The position numbers and the translations under genes were made by a program. Below are positions 3,103-63,070 of a stretch of DNA of 64,000 bases, in pieces. The stretch is from Tubulanus polymorphus. Lineage: Eukaryota > Nemertea > Palaeonemertea > Tubulaniformes > Tubulanidae. The notes below the pieces were generated by a model. The model was given only the letters and a program-made list of their open reading frames with translations, was not told the origin of the DNA and searched no databases. The stretch is from contig NC_134027.1 of NCBI RefSeq assembly GCF_964204645.1, positions 9,226,485 through 9,290,484 of the forward strand, given 5' to 3'. How positions within the stretch are numbered: position 1 is the stretch's first letter; every line of letters starts with the position of its first letter.

Positions 3103-3629
3103 TTGTTTTGTCCTTAAATCAACGCATACGCCATTCAAATAAAAAGAAGACAGGACTGAAAGCAATATTGGCTGAGCGACAGTATAGCTAATGCCAAGGC
3201 CTCAAAATCTCAGAATGATAAAAAATCAACGTTATTGTAAGCACGTTGTGAAAACAACAAGTTTGAAAACAACTGAAAAGTTGACTCAGTGAGTTCAACT
3301 GGTTGTTTTCAAAAATATCGGTATAGGATATTTCATATTTTGTAAAATACATTGCGACCATATGTATATATCTTTTTACTCAATCAGGCACCTTCATACC
3401 TTAGTGAACTACTACATATCCATTACCCTGCACGACTAACCAGACGTTCTTCAGAAATCCGATTCATTGACCCTTTTTATCGCGCAGAGTCTGATGGAAT
3501 AGTTGGCCAAAACATTCATCATTTGAGGTTTTTAAATCATCGGCTAAACTAATTCTATATCTGAAACTGTGTCAGTTTTATCTATTGTTGAGATTGTTTT
3601 TATTGTAAAGCGCTTTTTAGAAATGAATT

Positions 3630-3736
<107 letters not shown>

Positions 3737-6700
3737 TATTATTATCATTATTATTAGTATTATCATCTCGTCTGGATGAATGCTGTCTTTCTAATATATG
3801 AAGAGAACAGTGATTATGATCGACTTTCCAATTTTCTATATTTCATTACGACGAGCATTCGTCGTGTTTTCCTTTGAGTGGACGTTTTTCTGTACTGTCA
3901 TTATTTCCTTCCAAATGTAAACGAGCTAACTCTGTCCACGATTCTTGATTTATGTATACGTTAATGTGTGAGCGGCAGCAGACGGGCGAGATTAATGGCG
4001 AAATATCACGAACGTGCGTGACCCTCCGGAAGCCTATCGGCGCAAGGTGTGAACCCCGAAATACGTCTTTTCAAAACCGTAGAGATTTGTATAAGTATGG
4101 TTTATTTACTAAGTAGCTTTGAGGCCTTGCATCAATCTTGGTCCTCCTGACAACGAAGGCATGCAATTACCTTCGCAACGACAGACAATTGTCTCAACTA
4201 TATACCATAGTGCAAACGGGCTAGGAGATCTACTCGCAGACAAGTGAAAAAATGCAAATCTGGTAAATTCCTTAACTCTCTAGAAACCCATGAATTCTTC
4301 ATTACTTTTATTGGATCTACACGTACGAGGACATATCGATGAGGAGCTTTGGAACATCTAGAAAACTCTTATCATCTTTCTCATCGTCCAAATTGACTGG
4401 GGATTAGTTTATTTCAGCTGCCCGCTTTCCACCTGCAGTTTGAAGATATAAGAACATAACTAATCGTAATATCCTAGATATTTTTAGGGAGTGCAGTAAA
4501 GAGCGTACATACAACAATAATCGGAAAACCTGATTGAAATGTAAGAAAATGATGTACGTACCACGAGAAAACTCTAAATCCTCGAAACCATAATTGCAAT
4601 GATTTTGTCAATATTCTTCTCGCTATAAGGCGTTAACAGTCCTAGCTACGCATACACTCTGTCGATGCAACCTTCTGGCCACGCGTCTAAGTCTTAGTAA
4701 TTACATAAAGTAAATCAACGGTAATCTATAAAACACTATAGCAATTTAGCAAACGAAACAGTCGCGCGTATGGATTCGTCGAATTGAAATGTCACTAAAA
4801 TGTCAATCCGAAAAGTGGCTCTAGTCGAAATTAGTCTAGTATGAAAATCATTAACTTGGGAAATGCTAAAATACACATTTTTATTTCTTTGAATAATTTC
4901 AAAGATAATTACTTTGGCGGTTTGGAACGGAATCTTCAATCAACACTATTGAAATTGAACGCGATTTAACACAAATAACCACCGGGATTAGGCGAGCTGC
5001 CACTAGTGTCAGGTTTTATCAATAAGTAATTTACGACAGTAATACAGTCATAATCCCGGCACCTGGAGCACGATAAACAGCAACATTTTGTGTCTTCCTC
5101 GATTCCGGCGTTATTAGTTATACCAAATACAGAATTAGTATTACTTACTGCTAAATCCTCGACGTGTCTGAATAAGACGTCTCTTAATGATGTTTATGTG
5201 AAGGAAACTCAAAGTCGTAACAAATCGGGTGAACATTTGAACTTTTTTCGAAAACTATTACGTAATTGCTTTTAACGCCCATTTGATGAGAATTTATTGC
5301 TGCTTCTAAACGATTGTTTATATTCATCGTTACCACTGCTTGAAGTAAAACCACCAAAAATAACAAAGAATAGATAACTAGAAAATCAACCTGAAAGTTT
5401 TTCTGGTGCAAGATAACATATACTATGTATTGCTTAATATTGTGGCGACAATAGATGATATGATACAAATAATGTATATTTATCAATAAATTTAATTGGA
5501 ATTTTCATACTTCAACAATTGAATTGAATTGATTTGAATTACAAAATCAACGCCTATTTTCACAACTGCTACTTTGAAAATAAGTCAAAAACAGAATCTA
5601 GAAAGAGCGTATCACATCGCAATATAAGCGTCAGTTTCCTCAGACCAGAGGACAATTTTGACGAAGCAAAACACGACGTCACACGTGAATTCACGCCATA
5701 CGCCTCTCAAAAGAACTCGCGACTATCGGTTCTTCATTTGACTGAATGTTCTCTTGTGTGTTCTATCGTAATAAATCTTAAACGATTGCACGCCGAATAC
5801 CAATCGAATGAACGTTATCGCATACGCGAATTGCCGTTTCAAAGTGCTATTAAGTTCAAGGAATTTAAATACTAAGCTAGTCATACGGCGAAGTGTTACG
5901 CGTTTCTCTGTTGATTAAACTCCGTTGATTTTCTCGGTACGGCCTTCAAAACCATGAATCGTTGTCAGCGTGTGTTGCACAGTATCAACCCGATTATTGA
6001 GAATAAAGAATATCTTCAGTATATTAACCATGCTTCGCGATTCAAATGCTTCGTCTCGTTATCGAAAAAGATGATCGATTTTGTTTACGTGACTTCGTAA
6101 ATGTCGTAAGTAAATCGATTCGACGAGACTACTTGTCTATATCAACATGTTTCCGAAGTTCCACGAGTGACCTAAATGTGGTGATTCCATTTCTTGTTAT
6201 TTTGTAATGTCTACTAGTTATACTCCCCCAACGACGATACTACCCTCGGTGGTACTAAATAGCAGGTTTATTATTACTTAACTTCTATATTTGCTTGTAA
6301 TGATGATACGAAAAATTTAGGGCGTCTCCTCGGGTTACCCGTGTTTATTATGTTCGTATAATGATTATGATGGATGATAGACGAGGTTTGATTATTTATC
6401 TCTCACCCGAGACTCTTGCCATCATAACCAACAACATAGATTTCAGTTATTCGGAATATCTTTGATATTTTTGATTAGCTTCGGTGGGTAAAACGAATTC
6501 GTTTATTCAGTACAAGATTGCAGTAACGCAACAGCTTAGCATCAACGAATGGATTTGCGAACTTACTAATTACATAGTTTAAATGTTACCGGTGGAACAT
6601 TGTGTACAACGAGCTTGCCGGCAATCACCCAGCTATCCCACCAGGCTAATAACCACGCAAAAAATATACCGCGAACACAGATCCAACCAAAACTGGAATA

Positions 6701-33298: not shown

Positions 33299-36200
33299 AT
33301 GTGGCGTCGGGAATGGAAACTGGCTGTTGTTTTTCTATATTTCTGCGAAGGAACCATCTCGTGTGCGTCTAACGAGGTTTGTCAACAAACGTGCTTGAAC
33401 GGAACGTCTTCGCGGCCTCTTAACTGTCATTTTAAAACAGTGAGCGTCGATAATAACACGGAAGTGAATAATATGTCATCATTTTCATCCGTTTCGAAGA
33501 TTCGGTGCGCCCGTGATTGCTCCGCGCGTGAGGGCTGCAATTGCTTCACATACGACAAAACCCTTCGCATGTGTACGCTTATGGAAAAACAAGCCGTAAG
33601 TACAATATCCTAAATGTGAAATGAACACAAAGACCTAATATAATTCTTAATTAAATTGATTATAGACTCTAAAAATCTGAAATTGCTGTTTACTAGATTA
33701 GATATTACACAACGGTCCATTAATTCATGGCATGTTGGCAACGTAGAAGTTTGGTGACTTGGCAAATTGGTTAATTATTAACCAATTTGCCAAGTCACCA
33801 AACTACTTTTTTCTCCATTATCATATCTGTTCTAAACAAACGTCCATCTGAATGTTATGGTGGCTGATTCCAACCTTTCAAATAAGACAATTCCGTGCAA
33901 AAATATATATTTTTATAAATTATTTGCATGGTGTATTGCACGGGATTTTTTATTTTATACTCTGCTCGATTCAGCGACGATAGAATGTTTTCGCGTTATC
34001 ATATGTGGACAGAACATTCAAAGTTTTATCATTGAGAATTATCAAGATTATTATATGAATTATTATTTTAGAACATTTTACACTGACGTTCTACGTTCGT
34101 GCTCTAAACGGTGTCTGCCCAGTATACTTGGAACATGTGAAAGTAAAATTCTCGCCATCGGCATGCTCCAAACGCTTTTCGTCGACCTTAAAATGAATTC
34201 ATTCGAATGCACCGTTTTAGATAGAGCCAACGCTCACCGATCGAAATAAAGAAAAGAGCGATTTAAAAAAAATACGCATTCGCTGCACCAGGGTTATTCA
34301 ATGGCTTGCTTTTCTAGTCCTCGCCCGTCGTACGCTTATGTTTATCTTCATTCCGATTGCGGTAATGCGATACGCGCGCGGAGGTGCCACTAACTGGATG
34401 GATCGTTATGGCGTGTGTCGGTAACGTGTTTTTAAGGAGAGCGAAACACCAACTTTCGATTAGATCCCGTTGTTCTCATCGTCAATCATTGATGAATTAA
34501 CATCGTTGTGTATGTTTTGTTGTCGTTTCAAGCAAATAAGTTTTTACTATCACGCTCCTTTGCTTTTTTAACCTTCGCTGCCTTCCTTCTCAGTGTCACC
34601 GTGCTTTTTATGTAGTGTGTTTTCGTGAATTTACATTCTACGAACTTGTTGTTTTAATGATTCTATCTAAAAGCAATTCAGGTAGTAAGTGATTTAACTG
34701 CGAGTAAAGGTCGCTAGCTTTCACGAATTTACAAACTACGAATCGTCGATAATGATTCTATTTGAAAGCAATTCAGGTAGTTAGTGATATAACTGCGAGT
34801 GAAGCTTTCTTCTACTATGCAGGCTTCTTCTTGAAATCGCATAATTCTATAAATTGTATAATGGTTTTTCGACGTTTTCTGAATTTCAGGTATACAAATC
34901 GTACAGTCCGAAATATATTACATATCGATCTATTGGACTAGTATCAAGCAGCCAAAACGAGAGGGAAATATCGGTAATACTACGATTACAACTGTCACAT
35001 AGTTATTACTAACTCCATATCTAGTTATCATTAAGTTTATCAATTCCTTTTGTCACAGGACAATCCCCCTATTAGGTACCGCCCCTAGAGCTTTAAGTTT
35101 TCATTTATACTCATGTACCTATTTATTCATGAAATTATATCTAAAGAACTTATATCAATAATGTTGTACATATCATAAGTAAATAAATCATCATTATTCA
35201 TTAACTATAGAAATTGATTCGTTCCTAGACTAGGGCTAGGTATCTACATGATGGGATTTAAGCCAGTATTTTAGGACAATGAATCTTGTCTGTTTGGTCC
35301 GAAATATAAAGGAATTGAGAAATATGTACTTCAATTTTACTATTCTTGCCTGTGATTTTATTTTGCTTTTTTGTCTGTGATTTTGTTTCATTTGTATTCC
35401 TCAAGACCTTCATCTCAGATTCTGCAATGACTATCTAAGTTGTTTTTCTTGAATAGGCAATGATGGAATTTGCTCCCGACTTCACTAGATTGTTATTCTT
35501 TTTCTAACAGACTCAATTGATTACGAAGAGAGAAGCGACGTCTGTTCTGTACGTGAAATGGTCGATAACCATCGGTATCTTAGACCAGCAGACCACCACC
35601 GAAAAATGTGCCAGATTCTACGTAAAGTTGAACGGTAAATCGTGCACAAATCCGGGTCCTATAGACATGGTATACTTTCAGAGCGGAGCGAACATTGAGA
35701 TGACGTTGCCACATACAGGTGCATGCCTTATGAAGTATAGAAATCATGAATTTTTACAAACCATTGAAAGTAATAAGCGATTAAGTCATCTAGATGTTAA
35801 CCATTTCTTCAATTATCTAGTCGGAGGCATCTGCGAAGACCAGATTCCTAATGGTTTAGTAAACATTTCTCTGTGTTTGGGGAACTGTGCATCTTATCCT
35901 ATGGATATGGCTACGACAAGGAACTACACGAACACCCGAATGACTGTAGAAGAATTGGTCACAAACGGTAAGAAATTTCAAAGACTTTTGTTCACATGAA
36001 TATATACACTGACGACAATCGTTGAGTTCGTCTGCGGAATGCATTTATCATTTTAGACTCCCCTAGTTTGCGGAATATTTTTCACAAGGTATTGACAAGT
36101 TCAACAAGTTTCGACTTACCCTCCAACGAATCATCTGGCCACATCCAACAATACGTAAGAAATAGATTTTAACGCCTCTTTTTATATCGACATATGGCGT

Positions 36201-38301
36201 CGTTTACAATCGATGACATCGATGATCTGACATCGCATTCAAAGATGGTTTTTTAATACCTATAAAGTTTTGATCTTTGAATTGATTTTGTGCCCCATAT
36301 CTCCACGAATGAATCAATGGATGAATGAATTCATTTAACTTCTCAAAATTGTATTACATAGTAAAAAAATTACGAAGGTTTCACTTCAAATTTTCATTTC
36401 AGAACCTGACCTTTAGAAAGAAAAGTGACACGACTGTCGTGCGGGTGACTTTGATTGCCACTTTGGGTCTCTTTTACGTAAACAGTCCGACGATGATGTG
36501 GACGGGGTTAACGTTTAAATTGAACAGTCTGCCGTGTTCACAACCGTCCGCTATAGTGTCAGCTGTGGGGTTCGAAACCTCGAATGCAACAGCCAGAAAC
36601 GTCGTCAGTAGGTTTGATTGTTTAAGAAAAGTACTCAAGCTAGAGACGCATGCATGCGGTTAAGGTGGCTGAGTTTTGACAGCATGACGCAGAGATGCGG
36701 AGCATGTGTGTCAAGGCCCATGCATTCCCATATTGATATTCTGCAAAACGCAGCGGTCAAACTTGAACGCAACACACTACATCACAGCAAATGTGAACCG
36801 CGTGTTTGTGTTCCTATCGGCAATTTCCGAAAATAGGATTTCAAAAATTTCCACTCCGTTTGTATTTTCTGAAATTCTCATTACAGTGAGTGGAACCTGC
36901 AACGGTCTTGTAAAAGGCGATACGGTTCTAAGCTTGGAAATCAGCCACGAAGATTCCGCGGCCATACGAACATTAACGTGGGGCTCGGTATCCAGAATCA
37001 TCGTTGAGGAGTACGAAACAGGTGTGTATGTGCATTTCATCATCGATCAGTCGACAAAAATATTCAACACTTAAGCGACGAAATACGATATATAAGAGGC
37101 AAATAATGTGTGATTAAATGTAAAAAGATTGATTCATTTGCGGAAAATGATAGTAGAATCGTCATTGGCTTAGTTCTATAAGCTAATTTAGCTATCTATG
37201 ATGTCATATAGATCTTTACAATATCGTCGTTCCATTTTTTCAGCGGGCACCGGTTCACCGATATTCAACACAAAAACTGTCACAAATGGCGTGGCCATAA
37301 TGGGTGAAATCGATCAAACGATACTCGTGAGTTTATAATTTGTAATACATGCACTGTTAGGTATACAGAAGCGTCCCGGGGACTTAGAAAACCATATTTT
37401 TGAATAAAAACGGCGCTACCCCTTTCTTGAGAGGTCATTGACGCTGACAAATTCCAAGATGTAGCAAAGAATATTAGAAAAAAAATATTCAAAAGTAGAA
37501 TCTTTTTCTTAAAACTTGATAAGAAATATTTATAAATATGATTTTCTTAAAGATTTTTCCGACAGTTTTTATTCAAAAATTTGAATTTCTTTGGTGTCCC
37601 CAGTACGCTTTCGCAGTACGGAGAAAATGTGTTAGATAAATTGACAATCACTTATGTCGATTCGTTCTGTAAATGTGGATGTAAATAATTATTTAAGTCA
37701 ACTGTGGCTGTCTAAGTAATCATCGTCTCTGTCGTCCGTACAATGTAACAATCGAAACCTTACTTACAGACGATGGATTTCCTGAAAAACGATGCCCAAT
37801 CAGCGTTGAGCGTGGCTTTTACTTCATCGTTGTCGAGGGCCATTTGTACGGCGAATGAAACCGACCCGATCTGTTATCGGTACGCGTTAACGATTAACGG
37901 TACAGAATGCGACCAATTCTCAGTAGACACGGCCGTTCGCGTCGTCGAGCCGTCATCCTTTTACTATATCCCTTTTCAACGTAAGTGATAAAGGGCCAAG
38001 CCGTCATTTAAAGGGCCTCGACAACTCGAGGCCCTTTATCGCTTCCGTAATCAACTGAATTATTTACCACCGTTATGACATTTCGGTCAACAATTCAAAC
38101 GATTAATGCAACGTGACAATCTAACATCGAATTCATTCGTTGATTTCAGTATTTGGTATGTGTCTGCACGTTCCTGCCGGTCCATTGATACTCGGAGTCA
38201 AAATTCTGACTTGCCAAGGCATCAATCCACCGTGTACGACAATAACGGGCGGCAATAATTCTTTGACAAGTTTTACAGTGGAGGAGATACTGATTTCTTA
38301 A
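33299..38301 (+). CDS. Secreted protein: apple/PAN-like N-terminus plus three CTHRC1-like units (10 exons)
   Basis: Spliced model, exons 33299-33595, 34890-34973, 35511-35718, 35821-35967, 36057-36154, 36403-36607, 36887-37021, 37244-37326, 37770-37980, 38150-38301. All borders are GT/AG and all phases join, giving 539 residues. The start is the ATG before MWRREWKLAVVFLYFCEG, a probable signal peptide of about 22 residues. Residues about 23-99 are Cys-rich with a PAN/apple-like pattern (KIRCARDCS, GCNCFTYD, MCTL). Three units resembling the C-terminal domain of collagen triple helix repeat containing 1 follow, near residues 128-246, 279-391 and 420-539. Cues are FYVKLNGKSC and MTVEELV (unit 1), FKLNSLPC and SRIIVEEYE (unit 2), ALTINGTEC and FTVEEILIS (unit 3). 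There are many N-glycosylation sequons and no Gly-X-Y collagen stretch. CTHRC1 is known as a secreted Wnt/matrix modulator; the function here is unknown. The exon 3/4 intron is open in frame. Confidence 0.85.
33748..33804. repeat. Perfect 28-base inverted repeat with one-base spacer
   Basis: AGTTTGGTGACTTGGCAAAT... is mirrored exactly around a single T in intron 1 of the CTHRC1-like gene. Confidence 0.9.
33856..33891 (+). mobile_element. Possible end fragment of the TATGGTGGCTGAT family
   Basis: TATGGTGGCTGATTC lies within intron 1 of the CTHRC1-like gene; similarity to the family ends after about 16 bases. Confidence 0.35.
34623..34812 (+). repeat. Tandem duplication of about 95 bases
   Basis: Two diverged copies sharing AAGCAATTCAGGTAGT and AACTGCGAGT, 95 bases apart, in intron 1 of the CTHRC1-like gene. 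Confidence 0.8.
37987..38040 (+). repeat. Two alternative hairpins next to a 5' splice site
   Basis: AAAGGGCCTCGA / TCGAGGCCCTTT form a perfect 12-bp stem with a 4-base loop (38010-38037). GATAAAGGGCC (37987-37997) can instead pair with GGCCCTTTATC (38030-38040). The donor GTAAGT of exon 9 ends at 37986. Confidence 0.75.
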
Positions 38302-38503: not shown

Positions 38504-38509
38504 AATAAA
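38504..38509 (+). terminator. Poly(A) signal of the CTHRC1-like gene
   Basis: AATAAA lies about 200 bases after the stop at 38301 and is the first canonical signal on this strand. Confidence 0.6.
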
Positions 38510-38690: not shown

Positions 38691-39926
38691 TCAATAGTGC
38701 AAACATTCCGTGAAGAAATATCTGATTTTAGCCCATGATTGCTCTTGAGCTTTTGAATGAAGCTTTCGTTCGCCACCAAAGTCCACGCCAGAAACGTATC
38801 TACAGAACGGGGCAAATGGTGGTTCTAAAAGGTGCCCAGCGCCCGGATATACTACCAGTTCACAGCGACGTAGTTCTTTTTCATCACTCGATTCAAATCG
38901 GGTTAACATTCTTTGTGACGCTATCGGATTTGCCCATCGGTCGAAAGCCCCGGCGAGAAGCAAGAATCTTGCTTGCGTCGACTTCTCGAAATGGAAGTCG
39001 CAAATATCATTCGACCGGATGATTTCATCGATGGTTAGTATTTTTTCACGATATTTTTGGACAGGAAACGACTTGTGGATTTCGCCCTTGTATTTAATTT
39101 CAACTTCCGTATTGTGGTCGAAACCATTTATCGCGACGACTGCCGTTACTTTTGGAACATGTGACGGTAGTAACAGCGCTATGTCTGAACCTTTGGATAC
39201 GCTAATGACGCCGATACCACGTTCCGAGAACACCCCAGGTCTCGCGCAGAGCCAGTCAACACCCTCCTCGAAGTATTCCAAGTCTATATCGCCCCACGAG
39301 GGAAGATCCTTATAATTGAAGAAAGCCAGCGACAAGACCGTGAATCCACGAGACGCCAGCAGAGCTGAACGGTGTTCCATAAGTCCACCGCTCGATCCAA
39401 AGAAATCTAAAATACCAGGGAAGGGTCCTTCACCATTAGGCATATAGAAAGCACCGCGGAGTCTACCATCATTGACTTCTTGGCGAGAAACACCGGTGGC
39501 CATGTAATATCTTTTACATTTGCAACTTGCTATTTCTTCCCCATCTCTCTCATATGCAGAAGCTATATCCGAAAAATTGACATGACCCGAATGAATAGAA
39601 ATAACTAGGTCTAAAGGCTGCGTAACGTCCTTTTTCACGAACCGAAAGCCGTGTTTTTCCGGATCAGGATCACCTTTTATCGCCATTGACCATACAAGAC
39701 CCATTGGTTGAACACCGGTGTAACTGCCACCTACCGACGGCGCAGTTATGACGTCGACTTCTCCGTGCACATCTGCTATATAATAAGCCCGGGAATGCCA
39801 CACGCATCCATCATCATCGGCCATCGTTGCGTAAAATGTAACCAAAGCATATGCAGTTAAGTTGCTTCCTTTTATATGCAATATTTCATCGATGATACAA
39901 GACGTTGGATTAACTACCACTTCCAT
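38691..39926 (-). CDS. BAAT/ACOT-type acyl-CoA thioesterase or acyl-CoA:amino acid N-acyltransferase, single exon
   Basis: This intact intronless frame of 411 residues has the two parts of the family. The N-terminal beta-sandwich (Thio_ester hydrolase/BAAT N-terminal) covers about 1-130, and the alpha/beta-hydrolase (BAAT C-terminal) about 155-405. Family landmarks are FPGILDFFGSSGGLMEHRS (about 169-187), LEYFEEGVDWL (216-226), the nucleophile elbow ISVSKGSD with Ser244, the acid region LLAGAFDRW with Asp329, and PGAGHLLEPP with His365. The length is typical of ACOT1/2/4/6 and BAAT. Serine rather than cysteine at the nucleophile favours a thioesterase over a BAAT-like conjugase, but this is inference. 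The protein ends in CLHY, so there is no SKL-type peroxisomal signal; no clear mitochondrial presequence is seen. An AATAAA lies about 60 bases after the stop. The vertebrate relatives are split by introns, so this copy may be a retrogene-type or intron-loss form. Confidence 0.9.
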   Translation of the reverse strand: MEVVVNPTSCIIDEILHIKGSNLTAYALVTFYATMADDDGCVWHSRAYYIADVHGEVDVITAPSVGGSYTGVQPMGLVWSMAIKGDPDPEKHGFRFVKKDVTQPLDLVISIHSGHVNFSDIASAYERDGEEIASCKCKRYYMATGVSRQEVNDGRLRGAFYMPNGEGPFPGILDFFGSSGGLMEHRSALLASRGFTVLSLAFFNYKDLPSWGDIDLEYFEEGVDWLCARPGVFSERGIGVISVSKGSDIALLLPSHVPKVTAVVAINGFDHNTEVEIKYKGEIHKSFPVQKYREKILTIDEIIRSNDICDFHFEKSTQARFLLLAGAFDRWANPIASQRMLTRFESSDEKELRRCELVVYPGAGHLLEPPFAPFCRYVSGVDFGGERKLHSKAQEQSWAKIRYFFTECLHY

Positions 39927-41107
39927 ATCGTATAGCCGTTTATACGGTTGTCACTTGTTTGGTTGGATGTTAGTCGGCCAACCTCCTAAGGTTAAACGTC
40001 AAAGATACGCAGCCGGTAATCTAGGAAGCAAGCAGTCTGAATATAAAAGGAACGATGATTAAACAAAAACAATCTGATCAAATAATTCCCACGCCAAACA
40101 TATCACATTATCAAATTATAATTACTGGTGTACTGTCAGCTTGATGAACATCATCAGTGTGCAGTTGACACTATATACGTATATCGATGAATGCTGCTGT
40201 TTCTCTGACCTGACCTGACGAATGCATATAAAATGCACGCATATGTATATTGGAGTATATAAAACAATACAACTGTTGTTAAGTACACATAATGAATGAA
40301 CGTTCTGTGCAAATTGTGGGAAAATGAATTACATGCGTCATTCAATAGAGGTTGCTCCATTTGGGAATAGTTATACAGACACATATTGCGGTGTGGAAAG
40401 AAAGTATCTTCCTTTAATTACCTACGGCAAAAGCAGAGAAGTTCTGAAACACAAACCTGGCTCAGATTTTGCAGAAATAACGATTGGCGTCCCAAAGACT
40501 GGCTACATACATAATTCTTGACTGCACCCGAAATCTCCGATTTTATCTATATGATTGAAGTAGGTACTCGCAAATCTTTATCGAACTGCACCTACTCGAT
40601 TTATTCGACTGTATTGTGAGTACTGGTAATCCTTTCACTGTGAAGTGTGATTGTTTCATGTGTAGTATACTGTACATTGATTCATACTATAGCATATCAT
40701 AACTTTTTCTAGAGCGAAATAACCTTATCTTATCTTTATATAATGTGTCAAAGCCGAATAGCAACTCTTATTAATCATTGAACGTATCTTATCTAGAAAA
40801 TGTGTTTCGTTTCTGTAATGACAAATCACTCAATCACTCGATCACACGATTATTCGAGATTGTCATTAAATATATTCGGATCATCATGTTTTTGATATTG
40901 TATAGTGCTATTCATTTGTGGCTTTTCTCTATTTTCCTTAATTTGTAGCAGCGTAACGCAGCCTTTGGGCTGGGTCTAAAGTTTTCCTGTCCGTTCGTCA
41001 AAAAACCTTATCGTTATCCTTGCGATTATCATTTCTTAAAAAGAAAAACCAATTATTTTTTTCGTTATTTGTTGTCTTGATTTGACATTATATGTTTCAA
41101 AGATAAT
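39927..41107. other. Intergenic: BAAT/ACOT 5' flank and METTL27-like A 3' flank
   Basis: No gene recognised. A 65-codon frame at 40324-40521 resembles nothing I know. The last roughly 70 bases (about 41035-41107) resemble the 3' flank of copy B. Confidence 0.5.
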
Positions 41108-42552
41108 TCATCGGCAAGTTTTCTTCAGAACTGTAATCAGACCGGGCAACGAAAAACAATACTCGTCTATTTCGATGATGTCGTACGTGCACTTTCCTTC
41201 GCTTTGAATTTTCTCTAGAAATTCGTTGAAACCTTGAAACTGTTCCAAGTCTAGATAATTCTTCCTAAAACAGGCGAAAATGCACCCACCTAAAATTGAA
41301 ACGAAATCATTACGATGAAAAACCAAACTAATCTACCTTGTCCAGCAGCGAAAACAAAAGATGATAGTGTGGGTAGGTAATTGTCTGTGTTGTCAAAAAA
41401 CTACAGAGACCTATAATCTATTATCAACAAGTTATAATTTCCGAATCCATACCTTCTTTTACCATTCTTAGTATCTCCAAAAGCGCCTGATATGGTATGT
41501 GGCCCGGTACGATAGCTCCGCAGGTCACAGCGTGGTCATAAAAGCCTACAAGCAAAAACATAGATAATATCCTGAATTGCATAAAATTTCAATGTCAAGA
41601 TTTAATCCCTTGGGTTCATCTTTCTTTATTTATATAGAAATCTGTTTACCCGTTGGAATAGAGCATGGTTTTTCTACGGTAACGTATTCCGTATAACAGT
41701 TTTGATATAGTCCTCCTTTTAACTCGGCTTCTTTCAACAGCCCGGTGGAAGGTTCGATTGCATCGAACCGTCCCACGAATCCAGCTTTTCTCAACTGAAA
41801 TGAAACGTATATTTACGAGAAACTAGTACGGCTTGATCAATGATGAATAAGCTATGCCCAATTCAAGCAGGATCTTTTTCTTAATACTTTATATATTTTT
41901 AAACATTATATTTTTGTTCAAACCGAGTATACTCAACAATAGATCGCACTATACATTTACATCCAAAATATCGATAATGCTTTGCATTGTCATGTCCAAG
42001 ACATGTGTCGTCGATACTAACATTGACTTCAAAACACTTGAAAACTTTATCTCATAAAATCGGCATTTAGCCAGTCGTTACCTCTTCTGCAACGAGACCA
42101 GTACCGGCACCGACGTCGACTATCGAGCATTCTTTATTTTGAACGTACTTATCCACAACTTTCGCCAAATTCGTCGGCCCAGCGTACCACATCTGTTTAA
42201 CCTCCTGCCAGAAATAAAACAGTTTTCTTCCATTCGTGAGAATTACAGAAATTCAAGACTTAATACATGAAATAAGTGTCGTATTTTGAACATCCTAGAT
42301 CAACTGTTAGTGCTTTGATAAAAATATCTTTCTCAAAAATACAAAGAATACGAATACAATCTTTTTTCAAACCTTGTCGTAAGTTGTCCATTGGTTGTAG
42401 ATTTCCGTAATCGCTACAGGGTCGTCATTTTCGTGAAGTTGTTTCGTCATGAACTCGTACAAATTTGCGTCTTCACATCGTGGGGCTGCCATGGTGTCTG
42501 AATTGGAAGTCATGCCTAAATCTTTGTTTTCTGTGAAAGAAATTATGTTCAC
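41108..42552 (-). CDS. METTL27-like SAM-dependent methyltransferase, copy A (5 exons)
   Basis: Minus-strand exons in order of translation: 42552-42373, 42204-42082, 41794-41650, 41545-41453, 41289-41108. The GT/AG borders and phases (0, 0, 1, 1) fit, giving 240 residues, close to the usual length of METTL27 (WBSCR27). The class I methyltransferase motif I is IVDVGAGTGLV at about 88-98, followed by the acidic-loop region RFDAIEPSTGLL. TCGAIVPGHIPY and the GG turn before IFACFRKNY mark the later strands. The substrate is unknown. The start is uncertain: the frame runs from ATG 42552, but ATG 42513 or the conserved SDTMA methionine (42492) could be used. Conservation with copy B begins at NSDTMA, and a possible splice acceptor (TTTCTTTCACAG) lies inside the first codons. 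Copy B lies about 4.8 kb away on the same strand with the same exon structure. Confidence 0.85.
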
Positions 42553-43919
42553 GAGGATACATACCAGGGCTGGTGTTCGTGACAGGCCTCCGAACGTTAG
42601 GGGTCGACGAGATGCGGACTAATATTTGTCGCCAGCCACACAGCTCACTAGCTCACAACTCGTCGGTCTTGTACTACGTATGTATACATGAATAATACAA
42701 GTGGAGAACTACTGCAGGAGATATGTAAATCGATGAGTTGTTTGCATATTGGGGACGAGTGGTTTTGAAATATCAAACCACCGGATATTTCAATATATTA
42801 ACGCTGCGAAATAGGTGGATTAAACTAAATCCGAGTGAACGTTTCGTTATATCCTTTTGTAGGCTACTGGCTGTTGACAGAGGACGTTGCGATGCGAAGT
42901 TGATCCGTCCGACTTTAGACGACGATCGAGTTTTTGAATGGCCATAGAAATTGGGTCGAACCTAAATAAGGAATAAGGATTTTTCCGTTTATAAAAGGCA
43001 CATGCCATCAGATTATTTTGCCCATGAATGTTTCTTCAACACAACCTTTATTAAAGAAACAAATTATGGTTATCTGAATTAACCAACGTTCTTGCCAAAG
43101 CAGATCGAGAGCTATTCCTCCTCGGCAGAGCGATGTTACCACACGGTTCGAATCCCACAATTGCTAAACCTCAATCCTCATTTGAGTTTGAACAAGTGAT
43201 TTAAAAACGCACAATCTCTGAGAAAATAACCCTGCCTATACCTGTTCACTTTTCAGCCGACAATCTGACTACATGTATACCTTAAATGGAGATGGAACAA
43301 TAAGTCTTACAATTTAGTTAATCGGTAAATTACAAGATATTTCCGGCTAATCTTGGTTGAATAAATATTCGAACCAATTTGAATCCCGGAAGATGTAATC
43401 ACTGTGATATCGTTCATTGAATAAACCCGTAGATTCATTGTTTAACTAACCATCTTTAATATACATGTGTATATCTTTATTTCACCGCCTGGTGTCAGGT
43501 GGTACATCCTCCATGAATCCAAAATTTGAACTATGCGTGCAAATGAAAATTACTAAAACTTCAAAATTCATTTTAGTATAAACAGCGTCATGCGGTACAA
43601 CTTTTATCAACAAACCATTTAACCAGAATCGCCCTACACATGTACACCCATACCCGCATTGCTTCATCTGGTAAAAACATATGGAAGAACAGAATTAGCT
43701 CATTGATGAAATAGTAATAACCTTGATAATGATAAAACTTCATTTGAAACGCTTTAATACCAATATTAAGTATTTGAAAGCACAGTAGTGAATTGATGGC
43801 ATAAATTGAATTACTGCATGTTGTTTCCTATAGGCATAATTGAGATTGAGTTAATGTAATATTGAATCATTGTCTTCAGCGATCGGAATCCAGCTTTGTG
43901 AAACCGATTACCGAAGATT
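42553..43919. other. Intergenic: METTL27-like A 5' flank
   Basis: 42545-42595 matches the copy B 5' flank (GGTGTTCGTGACAGGCCTC). A SINE-like head lies at about 43095-43170. Otherwise nothing is seen. Confidence 0.5.
43095..43170 (+). mobile_element. Possible tRNA-derived SINE head
   Basis: A perfect RNA polymerase III box B (GGTTCGAATCC) lies at 43146-43156, with a weak box A-like CGGCAGAGCGA upstream. It does not fold as a full tRNA. Confidence 0.35.
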
Positions 43920-44876
43920 TTATGTAATAGACTTGGGATTTCGACCACAATATCTTAAACGGAGAACGACGAAATTTCGAACTTCGTCCCCGGACAGCAG
44001 ATATATGTAAAAATTGATCGCGCTGTTCAGGCCATAAATGGCGCTGGTGATAGAGGAAATATCGTTCATCGTCTGCGGGCTGAAAGTTACGTACGGTAGC
44101 ATGAATACAAACACAGCGTTCGGCAACGTGCATACAGTAAACAGAACCGACACCATCAACACCATGAACGTCGCCTTTCTGGCCGAAGTTGATTTACCCG
44201 TTGACTGACCGAATCCTTTACTTCGGCGCAGAATGATAATCAACAAGACGTTCGAAATTAGAACTGAAACGATTGGAATATAGACAACCGTTACGGGTCC
44301 AACGTTGAAGTATACGTTATGCCAAAATTGAGTCATCACGCAACTATGCAGACGAGTATCGAATTCGGTAGCTATGAATATGTAAATAAACGGCACACCC
44401 CACAAAACTGACATTATCAGAATAACTTTTCTGGAAAACGCTGGAGTGGCCACCGTTCTAGCAGCAAACGGCCAAACCACTATCACAAATCGTTCCATCG
44501 TTAGAATGATGACCATCCACGAACTGGCGACGTCGTTCGTGGCGGATAAATATTCGTAGATCTTACATGAGAAACTGTTTTCGAAAGTCACCACAGTTTT
44601 CGGGTAGTAGGCGTAATTTATAAACGGGATCGAGTATACGATCAATGTAAAAGTATCAAAAACGGCCAGTGCGGCCAGGTACTGCGAATATGAGAATACG
44701 CGAAACTTTCGACTTGTCATCACAAGGAAACTAGCGATATTACCGAATATGCCAGGTATACAAATCACTGGTATGAAGACCATCTGAAATCGGCGAATGG
44801 CTCTACTGCTAAAGCGGGGTGTGTCGACCACAATTGATGCATAGTAAGTAACCACGTATTCAGTGGTATCGTTCAT
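43920..44876 (-). CDS. Orphan class A (rhodopsin-like) peptide-type GPCR, single exon
   Basis: This uninterrupted frame of 318 residues has seven hydrophobic segments: TM1 about 32-54 (GN at 45-46), TM2 66-88 (Asp74), TM3 104-137, TM4 150-170, TM5 190-215, TM6 234-260 (Pro252) and TM7 273-296. Cys104 and Cys179 can form the usual TM3-ECL2 disulfide. The DRY motif is ERF (128-130) and NPxxY is replaced by NFYIY (288-292). That pattern is common in invertebrate FMRFamide/neuropeptide-like and other orphan receptors. The N-terminus has one NDT glycosylation site, and the C-tail is very short (about 20 residues). ICL3 is short and basic (RRSKGFGQSTGKSTSARK). The gene lies on the same strand between the two METTL27-like copies. 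The ligand cannot be told from sequence. Confidence 0.88.
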   Translation of the reverse strand: MNDTTEYVVTYYASIVVDTPRFSSRAIRRFQMVFIPVICIPGIFGNIASFLVMTSRKFRVFSYSQYLAALAVFDTFTLIVYSIPFINYAYYPKTVVTFENSFSCKIYEYLSATNDVASSWMVIILTMERFVIVVWPFAARTVATPAFSRKVILIMSVLWGVPFIYIFIATEFDTRLHSCVMTQFWHNVYFNVGPVTVVYIPIVSVLISNVLLIIILRRSKGFGQSTGKSTSARKATFMVLMVSVLFTVCTLPNAVFVFMLPYVTFSPQTMNDISSITSAIYGLNSAINFYIYLLSGDEVRNFVVLRLRYCGRNPKSIT

Positions 44877-45946
44877 CTCATCAAGACGTCTTCAATGTTG
44901 TCCAAAACCGCGCAGGAAACCCATGAAAACGTGCGAACTTGGTGATAGATCTCGTCGACCAGTCGCACTCAATTCAAACGCAAACTGTCCGGTGTTCGGT
45001 GTCAATTTTCGGAAGGCAATTCGATCAGTGTCGTTAAAATCTGAGCGGCAATTAGTAACTAGATATCGATGGGTGTAACTGAAAATGTTAATTTAGTCGA
45101 GATATTTTTTCGCAAAGATTGACATTTGACCTCAGTACATGGCATATACGTGGTATTTACTCTGAAACTCAGGCTTGGCATATATAGTCTTCATACATTA
45201 CTCATCACAGTTGTGCAAGCTGTTCAAAAGTTCTACAAATAATACATGTATTCATTGATTAATGGGCATATATTTGATGCAATCGAAAGTAAACATAATT
45301 TCGTATCTTTTTTACTAGGACCATAAATATCTAAAATAAATCTAGTCTTATCACATAATGTTCAGCATTATTTCCTTGTTTGAATGAACCGGAACCGAAA
45401 TTTTCCAATTATATTCTCCGTTTAAAAAAAAATCCGTCATCTCGACCACCGATCACACAACCATATCTGTACTTCGATTTCCGATTTCAAAATCAAACCC
45501 CCTTGTTCGATCCAGGCAGGTGTGTTGGCAAGGGACGCCAAATCAAACGAAATCCTCTAATCGAATGAATAATGGTCTTTTGAGATAAAAATGAGTACGT
45601 TTTCTCCTTGCTTTGAAATCGTGTGATGTTTGATGAAATTCTCCTTGACCTAATTTCAGACTAAGCGTACAGTCGTGTTTAGTACCGATGTACCGCCTCC
45701 GCCAGTCGCATTGACCGCCAATATCATGGAAACGTCTGTATTCTCAATAGATTCGTAGATCCTGATAAATCGCTTTCAGCATATCACCAACGCTATGTGT
45801 TCCTGTATTATGTAGTCAAATGCATTTGTAAAATGCATCAATACAGCATTTTTAAATAAAAAGTAAAAAAGAAAAAAACAAGTATTTTTCGTTATTTTCT
45901 GTCTTTATTCGGTATAAATATATATAATACTTTTTAAGATAACTCA
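44877..45946. other. Intergenic: GPCR 5' flank and METTL27-like B 3' flank
   Basis: No gene or element recognised. Confidence 0.5.
45904..45909 (-). terminator. Poly(A) signal of METTL27-like copy B
   Basis: AATAAA on the minus strand, about 40 bases downstream of the stop. Copy A lacks a canonical hexamer at the matching place. Confidence 0.6.
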
Positions 45947-47525
45947 TTAACAAGTTTTCTTTAGAACTATAATCAGACCGGGCAACGAAAAACAATATTC
46001 GTCTATTTCGATAATGTCGTACGTGCACTTTCCTTCGCTTTGAATTTTCTCTAGAAATTCGTTGAAACCTTGAAATTGTTCAAAATCTAGATAATTCTTC
46101 CTAAAACAGGCGAAAACGCAGCCATCTATAGAATAAAAAGAAAGAAAACTCGTGACAATGAAAAATTAAACAAATCTACCTTGTCCAGCAGAGAAAACCA
46201 AGGATGGTCATGTTGGTATGTAAATTGTATGTGTTTTTGTTTGATAATTTCCGGACTCATACCTTTTTTTACCATTCTTAACATCTCCGAAAGCGCCTGA
46301 TATGGTATGTGGCCCGGTACGATGGCTCCACAAGTGACAGCGTGGTCATAAAAACCTACCGGCGAAAACAGAGAATGTATTGAATTTAAGTAGAATTTAA
46401 TTTCAAGATTCAGTCCCTTGCGTTCATCTTTCTTTTTTTAACAGAAATATTTCTTACCCGTTGGAATTGAGCATGGTTTTTCCACGGTAACGTATTCTGT
46501 ATAAAGCTTTTGATAAAGTCCTCCTTTTAACTCGGCCTCTTTCAACAGCCCGGTGGAAGGTTCGATTGCATCAAACCGCCCCGTGAATCCAGCTTTTCTC
46601 AACTGAAAAGAAACGTATATTTACGAGAAACTAGTACGACTTGATCAATGATGAATGTGCTATGCCCACTTTCATTCAAGCAGGATCTTCATCTAAACGA
46701 AGTATTTTTTGCACAATACATTCACATCGAAAATATCAATAATTACACGCAGACGATTTGCCCCGGCCAAATCGGCACGGATTAGGCTCGAGTCAAGTTT
46801 GGTCCGTTCCTAATTAGAAAGTGCGTTCACACGTTAATCCCTCACTCAATACTAAACATTGCTTAAACAAAGCGAACTGAGACGCTACCGGAACACAATC
46901 CAAACGCAATAATTTGACCTGCTGAAATTTCGCTCAGGCCTGGTCTGACATTTTTGGTCGGGCCAAAAAATGCTCCACGCCAAGTCAACGCCATGAAAAA
47001 ACTACAAAAACTTGAAAACTTTATCTCAAACATCGGCGCTGAACCAAGTTAGTAGTTACCTCTTCTGCGGCGAGACCAGTACCGGCACCGACATCAACTA
47101 TCGAGCATTCTTTATTTTGAACGTACTTATCCACAACTTTCGCCAAATTCTTTGGACCAGCGTACCACATCTGTTTTACCTCCTGCAGAAATCAAACGGC
47201 TTTGATCCATTTGCGAGAATAACAAAAATGAAATTCAAGACTTTATAAGCGAAGCGTTTTGTGCATACTTGATCTATTTTGAGTGATATGATAAAACAAT
47301 TTTCTCAGAAAGATTACGACTTTAATTATTTTCAAAGTATATTACCTTGTCGTAACTTGTCCATTGGTCGTAGATTTCCGTAACCGCTGCGGGGTCCTCA
47401 TTTTCGTGAAGTTTTTTCGTCAGGAACTCGTACAAATTCGCGTCTTCACATTGTGGGACTGCCATGGTGTCTGAATTGAATGGCCCGAATGCGTCCATTA
47501 AATAGGAAGCTATACCCGAGGACAT
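45947..47525 (-). CDS. METTL27-like SAM-dependent methyltransferase, copy B (5 exons)
   Basis: Minus-strand exons: 47525-47346, 47182-47060, 46602-46458, 46355-46263, 46125-45947. The phases match copy A, giving 239 residues. Motif I is IVDVGAGTGLA. Differences from copy A are few: PKNLAK for PTNLAK, GFTGR for GFVGR, QKLYTEY for QNCYTEY, LSEMLRMVKK for LLEILRMVKE, DGCVF for GGCIF, and the last Arg is missing. The GG to DG change alters the turn before a late strand. The N-terminal 16 residues (MSSGIASYLMDAFG...) are unrelated to those of copy A. Intron 2 is 457 bases against 287 in copy A because it carries a MITE-like insertion (46746-46981). An AATAAA on this strand lies about 40 bases past the stop. 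Confidence 0.85.
46746..46981. mobile_element. MITE-like element in intron 2 of METTL27-like copy B
   Basis: Read on the minus strand it aligns along its length with 12654-12896 (shared GCATTTTTTGGCCCGACC, CTTGACTCGAGCC-type and GACGATTTG blocks). The matching intron of copy A has no such sequence, so copy A acts as an empty site. Confidence 0.65.
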
Positions 47526-49111: not shown

Positions 49112-50743
49112 CTAATCATATTGTCGAGTCTCGTGATACGAAAGTCTGACCGGTCGTTTCTTCGGAAAGAGCATCTTTTTGAATTTACGCCGGAAGCCGG
49201 CGTTGCACAACGGATATAAAAACGGATTGAGAGTCGAGTTCAGATAGCCGATCCACGTCACAGCGACCACCGTGCCGCTGTCGATGCAGCCGTCGCAGAA
49301 CGCGACTACCATGAAAATGATGAAATACGGCAAGAAGCACAGCGAAAAGGCACCCATTATCACGCCGAGTTGACGAGCGGCTTTGATCTCTTTCGTTAGC
49401 GATACGGTAGTTCGCCGGCGTTTGAACTTAGCCCCGAACATCCGCGCCGAGGCGGCTTTATTGCGTGCCGACGAATGGTCCCTGGTACTATTAACAACGT
49501 GATTACTTTTCGACGACGATTTCTTCGTTTTGGCGCTTACGGCAATCAAAGCGGTGCGACTAGGCGAATGAGCATTATTCGAAGAGTTAGCCGCTTTTGA
49601 ACTATTCGTCTTTGAGTTGGACAGTATCGATTTAAGCCGTCTTTTACGGTCCATTAGGAAATGAGTATTTTTCGTCGATGTTTGCAAGTCGTTTTTAATA
49701 CTCTTGTGAATTTGATCTACGACGGCTGATTTCTGAAAATGACAACTGGCGGCGGAATGTTCTTTCGGGGACACGCTGATGTTGGATTGTTTGGTGTTCG
49801 TGCTGAACGTCGACTCGGAACTACCGTGCGCCTCCTCCCGTTCGCTCGTTCGGAACGTCGTCAGCTTGTGTTCTTCGTACAGAAACGGCTGAATCTTCTC
49901 GGTGTTCGAATCGATGACCCGCTCGTCGTAGGCGAATTCGACGTCGAGTTTGTATTCCAGCGGAGAGTGGCCGTTGTTCTGTTCGCTTTTGATGCCCTCG
50001 GTGGCCATACGGATCAGATTCGCGTTATTGAATTCGTATTTGCGATGAAACCGACCGATTTCGTCGTCGGACGTTTCGGTTTCGCACTCGGCCGGAGATT
50101 TCGGAAGCGCGAGTCCGACGCTCTCCTCGGGCGAAGGCGGGGTCGGTGGTGTTATCTCGGCGAACGTATCATTGCGGTTATCACTGTCGTCCAGCGTGGA
50201 AATGTGAATGCTCGTGAAGTACGAACCGCCGATGTTCTTGCGACCGAGTTCGAACTCTGAACGTTTTCGAATTTCGTGAAATATATTTCCGTACAAAATG
50301 AACATGATCGTCAGTGGAATGTAGTAGTTAAATAGCGCCGTGATCACCTTAAAAACCGTGTCCGTCGCGTATTCCGTGTCGCACACGTTATCGGGCACCA
50401 TCCTCACGCCACCGGTCGCGAAATGATGCCAGCCTAGTATCGGTATGATCCACAGCATCGATAAAAACCATACGATACCGATCATAATTAGAGCACGTTT
50501 TTTCGTCCGTTTGCGCAGATATTTCAACGGGGACGTAACCGACCAATATCGGTCCAAACTGAGAATAAACAAATTCAGAATCGAAGCCGTGCTAGCCGTG
50601 TAATCCACTCCTATCCATAGGTCACAAACCATCTGTCCAAAATGCCAGTCTTCGGTGAATATATAGATTGCGCTGATCGGCATCACGATTAGACCGACGA
50701 CCAGATCCGCGATAGCAAGGCTGATGATGAACATATTGCTAAC
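49112..50743 (-). CDS. Histamine H1-like biogenic amine GPCR, last large exon (5' part missing)
   Basis: This exon of 543 codons plus stop begins at a splice acceptor (TTATTTCATTACAG before GTTAGCAATATG) and covers TM2 to the C-terminus. The upstream exon with the N-terminus and TM1 was not found in the remaining 13 kb. Counting from the exon start, it shows LAIADL (TM2), Asp47 in GVDYTASTAS (the amine-binding Asp of TM3), DRY at 64-66, IPILGWHHF at the TM4 end and ITALFNYYIP in TM5. A very long Ser/Lys/Glu-rich third loop follows, then KAARQLGVIMGAF, CFLPYFIIFMVVAFC in TM6, and GYLNSTLNPFLYPLCN in TM7 with a short basic tail. The TM4, TM5 and TM7 signatures fit H1 better than muscarinic or other amine receptors. 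The normal TM6 CWxP is CFLP here. An AATAAA follows the stop by about 45 bases. Confidence 0.88.
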   Translation of the reverse strand, partial: VSNMFIISLAIADLVVGLIVMPISAIYIFTEDWHFGQMVCDLWIGVDYTASTASILNLFILSLDRYWSVTSPLKYLRKRTKKRALIMIGIVWFLSMLWIIPILGWHHFATGGVRMVPDNVCDTEYATDTVFKVITALFNYYIPLTIMFILYGNIFHEIRKRSEFELGRKNIGGSYFTSIHISTLDDSDNRNDTFAEITPPTPPSPEESVGLALPKSPAECETETSDDEIGRFHRKYEFNNANLIRMATEGIKSEQNNGHSPLEYKLDVEFAYDERVIDSNTEKIQPFLYEEHKLTTFRTSEREEAHGSSESTFSTNTKQSNISVSPKEHSAASCHFQKSAVVDQIHKSIKNDLQTSTKNTHFLMDRKRRLKSILSNSKTNSSKAANSSNNAHSPSRTALIAVSAKTKKSSSKSNHVVNSTRDHSSARNKAASARMFGAKFKRRRTTVSLTKEIKAARQLGVIMGAFSLCFLPYFIIFMVVAFCDGCIDSGTVVAVTWIGYLNSTLNPFLYPLCNAGFRRKFKKMLFPKKRPVRLSYHETRQYD

Positions 50744-53700
50744 CTGTAATGAAATAAGAATTTGCAAAATTTAGTCCAATGAAATCATTTAAGATATAAA
50801 CGAATCGGCACAATACATTAAGAATGATAATTATATCACAACATCATTCCCATCTAATGAATTATTAAAAATCAAGGGAATATTAACGGGGTTTTCTGCC
50901 TTTTTCAGGAAAGAAGAAGTGGAATATCTCAAAATAAAAATGAGCCACTTTACTTCCCCTTTTACACACAGGTAGAAAAACTCGTCTGAATTATAAAACT
51001 GTCCTAATTTCCAAATCGAAATCAGGAATAATTAATTTTCGATTTAGAAATGTCATGAACTTGTTCCCTCTTGATTTAATGATACATTCTGGGCTGCTTT
51101 CATAGAAAAGCCTTAACCTTAACCCCGGGGTTAAACTTTTAGCACATTATCAGTTAGACTGACGACTCTTCTATTAGTCGCTTCAATTTAATCGTTATGC
51201 AAAATTCGAAATCATCTCCAACTAAACACAAAAATAGAAAAATCGATTTTCATTAGGGGTACATACATGTAGTTTTAGTTTCAAAGGTCGGGAAATCACA
51301 AAAAGAGTTTATTTAGCCACTAGAATTTTTTTTCAGAAACGCCCTTAAACAGCCTGAAACCTTAATTCATACAGAAAAGAATATAGTATTCGGGTCGAAA
51401 GTTCATTGAGCTTTAAACGACGTATAAATACGTATGAACATATCATTTCGAGTTGAGTTGTGCGAATATTTGTCTAATAATAGTTACTTATCATGCAATT
51501 CAATATCATCATGGCTTAAACACCTTCTTGAAAGTTTAACTAGCATATAAAAAGTAGATATAGATACAAGTAGAATACAGCAGAATTAGGCGTTAAAGAA
51601 TAAGCAACAGTAAAAAGGTGAGTTTTTAATTAAGATTTAAAACTATCTAAAGAAGTGCTAAAACGTAAATGAGTAGGTAACCTAGAGAAGTATTGAATAT
51701 AATGCTTCAATCCCTATTCCCAAGTTGCTGATGTCATAAGGAGATTATAGAGACGACCAGCTCCTTATAAGATAGAGTGTTAAGTGAAAGTACTTTCTAA
51801 ACGCGAAAGACGATTTTTTATTCGGGAGGCTCTTGGAAAAACCGAATTACCCGTAATATGGTTTGACGTAGTCTTTCCCCGTCGAATGACTTTTTGATGG
51901 ATTTTACCTGCAGGGCAAACAAACGGTCGTCACAATAAAACTCGGGCTATCAATTTCCAATATTGTACAAAGGCAGGTTGATGATAAATAACGACTGGAA
52001 AGATAACGGAAAGCGCAAGCACACAACGTATTAGTCACCAAACACGAGCGATATCCACAACTTTCCCTTAGTAAATGTGTATTTTCAAGACAATCTTTTG
52101 TGATATTTCACACGTTTGGTTTCTTTTCAACACTAAGTTTTGAAATAAAACGCCTTTATGCCACCCTCCTCTCCAGAAAAGTATTAGTCCGTTCAAAATA
52201 TGCCGACGACCGTGTCTCACCATAAAAAATCTTAGTGATCGTATTTCTAAGGTTTAAATTGCATATATTGTATTTGCGAAGAAAGGTTGTCTTCAGTCGC
52301 AGTTAATTGAATCATATTTTCACATGGGATATTGCGTAGCCCGATGTTGAAAAACTGAAGGTCACTTGTGGGTAACCGACACACGTGAGCATTTTGACAC
52401 TATTGTTCAGTTTGACATTTAGATCTATTTAGTGAAAAATCGTTAGTTGTAAACGATACCCGAATAACAAAGGACAATGTCATATTTTCTCATGACTTTG
52501 GCCAAGGAGCCCGAATCAGAAAATATGGATGTATAATCCATCGGTACTGATACTCGACAATTCTTTCGGAAGCCTCAAAACCAGGTTTTATCCAATCAGC
52601 TGATCCACTCGTTCTTGATGCCCCCACTTGACATTTCCCATATGCGACTGGCCGTCTCACTAACAAACGCAATCAAGCGTTCCGTCTTGGCTGCGTACAG
52701 TTCACAGTTACGAACGATACCTTTAGCCTTGGAATGTCGCTTTCACCGATTATCTGGATAGATAATGTAATCCTGGTTCATTGAAATGATTTAATATGCC
52801 TTAAGTCCAATCGTTTATGAAATTCCGCTTGGCCAACACTAAACTGAGGATATCTAGTTATCATTACCTAGTTTAGGTGAAATTGCCAAACATGGTCAAA
52901 ATCCAAATATCAACAACAACCCGGGTGATGAATTTGTATGAATGAGGGAGCTCTGAAAAGTTTTGGAGAGCGAGATAAAAGCTCCGTGACAGTAATGACG
53001 AGCTCTCTGGTGGTGGAGAACATATATGTAAGCCGCAGTGGAAGGATGAATAAGGAATGCTGATTGCCGCATGATATACTAAATTTATACTAATATATAA
53101 TGATTTCTCGTGAAGATCTTCAATTCTCTTCAAACATTCAAAGATTCTCGTCAAATAAATTATTGACCAGGGGAGGGCAACGTGGCAGATAAGAACAGAC
53201 TTATATCAGACAGACCATTCCCATTACCGATCGAAGTGGAAAAACCGCTCATAAGACTTTAAGACCCATTTCGCCATGTTTTGAACTCAGGGGATCGGCA
53301 ATACTGATAGAGCTGAAATGAGGCCGTCTGATACCCGTTGGTGATATTAACTTCGGTGTATCGTAATGGAAGTGAAGTGAAGTAATTCTGAGACATTTGT
53401 CTGGTAAACAGTGCGTTCAACGAATATAGACGACGCCATTTTGAAAATCGAAAATCTTCCAGGTGGGCATCCAACTCCGCAATACACTATCTGGCCGGCA
53501 TCGTGCCCTGGCTGAATCACGATGCAGACGTTCCATTCTCTTCGAGGAAGGATCGAGAAAATTCTTCTTAGAGCACCATCAGCGATCCCCCTACATGCTG
53601 CAGGACTCGGTTCATTTACCGCTGCGATGTAACAGCTTCAGATAGCTATCTTCATAATGACGACGCCATCAATCAGTGTTGATAAATAATGGGTCATGTA

Positions 53701-62765: not shown

Positions 62766-62845
62766 CCCGCGCATTCTCACCGGTAGGGATTCGAACCTGA
62801 TGGCATCGAGACTCGCCCCGGTACGAAACCCTGCCACGGCTACAT
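62766..62845 (-). mobile_element. tRNA-derived SINE head, minus strand
   Basis: On the minus strand, GGCAGGGTTTCGTACCGGG, then GCGAGTCT and box B GGTTCGAATCC (62797-62787). It matches the plus-strand copy at 62995-63070. Confidence 0.5.
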
Positions 62846-62994
62846 GCGCAGCTTATATGGTGTCATTATTAGCCAAATAGAAATCCTGTTTCATTTTAGC
62901 CCGGTTTATAGTTTATCAACGAAATTTGCCTCAGTGATTATACATCGAGCAATCTGATAGGTGCCGCAAGTTTTCGCGCGACAAACTTGCGCAT

Positions 62995-63070
62995 GTACCT
63001 GGCAGGGTTTCGTGCCGTGGCTGAGTCTAACCAGATCAGGTTCGAATCCCACCGTTTCCCGGCGTTAAGA
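62995..63070 (+). mobile_element. tRNA-derived SINE head, plus strand
   Basis: Box A-like TGGCTGAGTCT lies at 63018-63028 and box B GGTTCGAATCC at 63039-63049. The spacing is too short for an intact tRNA. The preceding GGCAGGGTTTCGTGCC is shared with the inverted copy about 170 bases upstream. Confidence 0.5.

Follow-up and report, generated by a model that had tools for sequence, protein, structure and literature searches.

Three tandem CTHRC1_C domains behind a PAN/apple-like head in two genes of the ribbon worm Tubulanus polymorphus

We analysed a stretch of 64,000 nucleotides from the Tubulanus polymorphus genome (hereafter the window; contig C3, 9226485-9290484; the genome searched comprises 267.8 Mb in 77 contigs), and found in it what is almost certainly a single gene for a protein in which an apparent signal peptide is followed by a PAN/apple-like domain, a linker and three tandem CTHRC1_C domains (the C-terminal domain of CTHRC1), with no collagen part. 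A sequence-only reading of this stretch had proposed ten exons joined in phase to give 539 residues; the rebuilt model bears this out, with exons between 33299 and 38301 (forward strand) forming a 1620-nt open reading frame (539 amino acids and a TAA stop codon) and GT..AG ends on all nine introns. Exon 1 (33299..33595; residues 1-99) carries the start codon, a hydrophobic leader (residues 1 to ~23) that looks by eye like a signal peptide, so that the protein is apparently secreted, and the Cys-rich head; exon 2 (34890..34973; residues 100-127, phase 0-0) encodes the linker. Each CTHRC1_C unit is then split over a first and a second part: exons 3 (35511..35718) and 4 (35821..35967) for unit 1, exons 6 (36403..36607) and 7 (36887..37021) for unit 2, and exons 9 (37770..37980) and 10 (38150..38301, ending with the stop codon) for unit 3. 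Between them lie exons 5 (36057..36154) and 8 (37244..37326), which encode a linker together with the start of unit 2 and unit 3, respectively, and are both entered in phase 1 and left in phase 0. All ten exons are on the forward strand, as is a possible polyadenylation signal (AATAAA, 38504..38509; motif only). A phase-0 intron precedes exons 3, 6, and 9, that is, one per unit, and unit 2 as a whole is made of three exons with phase 1 at entry and exit. The 102-bp intron inside unit 1 (35719-35820) is open in frame, and the CTHRC1_C match follows the spliced form; retention of this intron would add 34 residues without a stop, and may give an alternative form. Intron 1 also contains a near-perfect palindrome (about 33748-33805, seen by eye).

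We compared the protein with Pfam profiles at their curated cut-offs (27 bits for CTHRC1_C, PF25815; 21.4 bits for PAN_1, PF00024). The whole protein matches PF25815 in three stretches (E 1.8e-31, 109.7 bits), and each unit alone exceeds the cut-off (unit 1, 55.2 bits; unit 2, residues 271-386, 32.7 bits; unit 3, residues 417-525, 33.3 bits), in agreement with the three diverged CTHRC1-like units of the sequence-only reading. A [VI]EE motif lies close to the end of each unit (residues 239, 386, and 533), with a spacing of exactly 147 residues, and the linkers between units are about 30 residues long. Neither this protein nor its paralogue (see below) contains three or more consecutive Gly-X-Y triplets, and the earlier claim that a collagen repeat is absent therefore holds. 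The claim of an apple/PAN-like head stands less firmly: the head with its linker reaches 21.5 bits against PAN_1, narrowly over the cut-off, and 17.0 bits, below it, when scored inside the whole protein. Compared by sequence with solved chains (phmmer), the head matches micronemal protein 4 (4a5v, E 7.2e-6, residues 62-96) and, weakly, 2yil (E 0.059, residues 50-94), both of which we take to be apple/PAN domains; these matches cover part of the head. The head stretch that was compared carries eight cysteines in both genes. The PAN assignment is the weakest part of the domain calls, narrow in the window gene and clearer in the paralogue.

Six collinear matches to the full window protein revealed a diverged paralogue (locus L015, C3:6558677-6562336), which shares the contig with the window gene at a distance of 2.7 Mb. 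Our model of it has 11 exons with GT..AG introns and encodes 583 residues, with a leader followed by a PAN head, a Thr-rich linker that spans two exons, and then the three CTHRC1_C stretches. It scores 114.7 bits against PF25815 as a whole (units 2 and 3 alone, 34.7 and 30.2 bits), and its head is over the PAN_1 cut-off both as an exon (26.3 bits) and within the whole protein (22.8 bits); among solved chains, too, this head matches the PAN/apple type (phmmer, E 0.0072). Here the [VI]EE motifs are at residues 276, 423, and 570, again exactly 147 apart. The two proteins align over nearly their full length (blastp, 31% identity, 257 bits, E 1e-82), whereas the best of 200 shuffled copies reached 25.8 bits. 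Every one of the 10 window exons has a counterpart in the paralogue, and seven of the nine window introns share both the alignment column and the phase; the other two, those following exon 2 and preceding exon 8, are 6 and 2 columns off, respectively, with unchanged phase. The phases of exons 5 and 8 are identical in the paralogue. Its one extra intron lies in the Thr-rich linker (L015 4111-4425), of which the window gene matches only the second exon (exon 3 of the paralogue, matched by window exon 2), and the stretch separating the head from the units therefore differs between the two genes. Between the two genes, first, second, and third codon positions are 51, 60, and 33% identical, as is typical of coding sequence, and blastn of the paralogue locus against the window found no similarity; the gene pair is therefore old, and selection has preserved the protein.

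Comparison of the six units revealed that they pair by position across the genes. Identity between units of the window gene (W) and the paralogue (P) is 42.5% for W1-P1, 37.5% for W2-P2, and 36.8% for W3-P3, whereas the other 12 of the 15 unit pairs share 14.3-31.8%. A tree of the six units groups W3 with P3 and W2 with P2 (both starred) and does not resolve the joining of W1 and P1; it carries a long-branch warning. The pairing by position shows, on these alignments, that the unit triplication came before the duplication of the whole gene. From the intron phases we infer that the triplication arose when a module of three exons, with a phase-1 intron on either side, was copied in tandem; a symmetric phase 1-1 module leaves the reading frame intact when duplicated in this way, and the architecture would then have a simple explanation.

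We also searched the genome for further copies. The full window protein matched 27 places: 10 in the window gene, six in the paralogue, and 11 weak places elsewhere (E-values of 0.04-0.57). Ten of the latter (on C1, C3, C4, C5, C7, C8, C9, C11, and C12) match residues ~230-300 at 28-31% identity and sit inside long open frames of 339-1342 amino acids, perhaps a repeated element; the remaining one (on C5) matches the head. The PF25815 profile, with E-values up to 10, found four places, three of which are unit 1 of the two genes (window exon 3 scored 27.6 bits in a family search of the genome). The fourth (on C1, 18.7 bits, E 0.31) was taken for chance, since none of the six unit sequences matches there (tblastn, E up to 1); the gene antisense to it is presumably a nuclear-receptor gene, by its zinc-finger motif. 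Unit 1 of the paralogue, used as a query, matched four places, all within the two genes. A single-unit, collagen-bearing CTHRC1 was not detected in the genome by this exon-by-exon search, in which the family profile also failed to pick up units 2 and 3 of either gene. These two genes are thus the only CTHRC1_C genes detected, and more distant members, a diverged classical CTHRC1 among them, could have escaped the family search. Pattern matches in viral contigs (40) and in prokaryote genomes (24) gave no confirmed relatives.

Behind the window gene, on the reverse strand, is a gene for a rhodopsin-family G-protein-coupled receptor (GPCR; 43923..44891; 7tm_1, 71.4 bits), which is 46% identical (E 2e-71) to a rhodopsin-type GPCR just behind the paralogue, likewise on the opposite strand to its neighbour; this suggests duplication of a neighbouring gene pair. 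In the window, the CTHRC1-type gene is separated from this GPCR by an open frame of 419 amino acids (38694-39950, reverse strand), which encodes an acyl-CoA thioester hydrolase/acyltransferase of the BAAT type (BAAT_C, 127.9 bits; N-terminal domain, 114.2 bits). Further along, an exon of an aminergic GPCR lies at 49115-50770 (reverse strand); among solved structures, histamine H1 receptors match it best (E 8e-75), and a long stretch separates the matching parts. Two similar short coding stretches (42370-42618 and 47325-47525, reverse strand) look by eye like copies of one gene; no Pfam match was found for the pieces 42070-42252 and 47325-47525. The window also has a long trinucleotide repeat (3592-3842; poly-Ser, poly-His, or poly-Asp, depending on the frame) and a short repeat element (62780-63050) that is 72.6% identical to L024 6486-6799, near the paralogue, and whose ends also match inverted, resembling a miniature inverted-repeat transposable element. 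An Rfam scan of the window found no RNA family, and a search of the assembly for COX1 gave no match.

CTHRC1 has been studied in injury, fibrosis, and cancer. Members of the Cthrc1 family combine a short collagen repeat with one C-terminal domain, and share a conserved intron in the 5′ region of the part coding for that domain (Leclere et al., 2020; PMC7058181). The window protein shares the PF25815 domain with CTHRC1, and its apparent signal peptide is in keeping with the secretion of CTHRC1; it differs in having no Gly-X-Y run, three C-terminal domains, and an added PAN/apple-like head. What is new, on our domain assignments, is a CTHRC1-domain protein without the collagen repeat of the family and with three domains where one is usual; the domain itself is known. 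CTHRC1 C-terminal-domain proteins of choanoflagellates and dinoflagellates likewise have no collagen repeat, and the survey's account of them mentions neither tandem units nor apple domains (PMC7058181). Our literature search found nothing that combines CTHRC1 and “apple domain”, and “apple” is absent from the main text of the 2020 survey (PMC7058181); among the papers listed by related searches, titles and opening abstract lines likewise gave no sign of this architecture. The architecture may already sit uncommented in eukaryotic protein databases. In design, the nearest precedent is CTRP4 (C1QTNF4), in which a second C1q domain replaces the collagen stalk, and for which trimers and higher oligomers are listed (PMC9952994). 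CTRP4, however, has two such domains, not three, and these are true C1q domains and not CTHRC1_C; an apple domain is not mentioned in what that source says of it (PMC9952994).

Structure prediction was not used as evidence. The AlphaFold2 model of unit 1, from a three-row alignment and an unbroken translation that includes the 34 intron-encoded residues, showed strands only (mean predicted local distance difference test score, pLDDT, 39.2), and the model of the head alone had a mean pLDDT of 48.8; a Foldseek search with this low-confidence head model returned 107 matches up to E 10 (best E 0.68), with no PAN domain by description among the 50 listed.

A single-chain trimer of the adiponectin head has reportedly been crystallised. 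According to the 2020 survey, a C1q-like beta sandwich is the best model for the C-terminal domain of CTHRC1, and it can be arranged as a trimer (PMC7058181); in the C1q/TNF-related proteins, the C1q domain mediates assembly while a three-chain collagen helix adds stability (PMC9952994). By analogy, we tentatively propose, at a confidence just short of an even call, that the three CTHRC1_C domains on one chain form a pseudo-trimeric head with the apple domain as its anchor. The three diverged copies would supply the three subunits and so make the collagen stalk, which normally helps to hold three chains together, dispensable. The fold would be an asymmetric pseudo-trimer with three faces that could differ in binding, the apple domain would attach the chain to matrix, a glycan, or a partner protein, and the whole protein would serve outside the cell as a ligand or in recognition. 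Taken together, the CTHRC1_C architecture and this mechanism seem to us about evenly poised between right and wrong. The fuller statement, that this is a natural single-chain asymmetric C1q-type pseudo-trimer on an apple domain, replacing the collagen stalk in a genome without a detected collagen-bearing CTHRC1, we hold to be rather doubtful.

Several points weigh against the pseudo-trimer. Unit 1 has an odd number of cysteines (five) in the window protein, and four in the paralogue. The search for solved relatives of a unit by sequence returned unrelated proteins at best (E 0.23 and 0.36). The C1q-like fold of the CTHRC1 C-terminal domain rests on published models, and in that same work HHpred with this domain alone gave no significant hit (PMC7058181). 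Since C1q domains themselves drive trimers, the loss of collagen alone does not call for three units per chain; and in CTRP4 the first of the two C1q domains is mainly monomeric (PMC9952994). That last observation also favours the alternative that the units are separate CTHRC1_C modules, like beads on a string, which do not trimerise or trimerise between chains, in a matrix or adhesion protein of high avidity. We regard this as a real possibility, somewhat short of probable. The linkers of ~30 residues between units and the Thr-rich spacer ahead of unit 1 in the paralogue, which is expected to be extended, are in its favour, the low identity between units at different positions (14-32%) is compatible with separate ligands, and the conservation of units by position fits three independent beads equally well. 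The presence of exactly three units in both genes, their equal 147-residue spacing, and the lack of collagen are what a pseudo-trimer predicts, and none of these is decisive. A different function, that of a Wnt/TGF-beta modulator with a role equal to that of vertebrate CTHRC1, is suggested by the links of CTHRC1 to Wnt/planar cell polarity and TGF-beta/BMP signalling (PMC7058181), and by the proposal that it is a ligand of GPR180 (PMC12716839); it seems unlikely to us, given the missing collagen part, the extra apple-like domain, and the failure to detect a single-unit, collagen-bearing CTHRC1 within the sensitivity of our search.

The remaining alternatives concern the gene itself. Each unit, at ~150 residues, could stand alone, and the gene model was built from sequence, so two or three adjacent single-unit genes might have been misread as one; we consider this scarcely credible. 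In the joined frame a single signal-peptide-like start was seen, by eye, and a single stop; exons 5 and 8, which carry the linkers, start in mid-codon; and the paralogue has the same exon chain, in matching order and phases. A paralogue with a matching exon layout and an end-to-end alignment makes separate genes, or a chance chain of exons, very unlikely, and hence separate transcripts for the units as well. Decay of a non-functional copy of a CTHRC1-type gene might be suspected from the scores of units 2 and 3, which are far below that of unit 1 on the family profile. This, too, is highly improbable: all ten exons are open, all nine introns keep their GT..AG ends, the two genes diverge most at third codon positions, and the protein is conserved although blastn finds no similarity between the loci.

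To our knowledge, it is not yet settled what the CTHRC1 C-terminal domain does independently of the collagen part. Losses of Cthrc1 were inferred in annelids and rotifers in the 2020 survey, and no Cthrc1 was found in platyhelminth, molluscan, or nemertean genomes (PMC7058181); collagen-free, diverged proteins of the present type, encoded by short exons, might have escaped that survey or been discarded in it. A collagen-free chain with three CTHRC1_C domains would let the trimerisation and binding of this domain be tested alone, and, if the pseudo-trimer is correct, would show how a trimeric fold can be rebuilt as a single chain through tandem copies of a phase 1-1 exon module.

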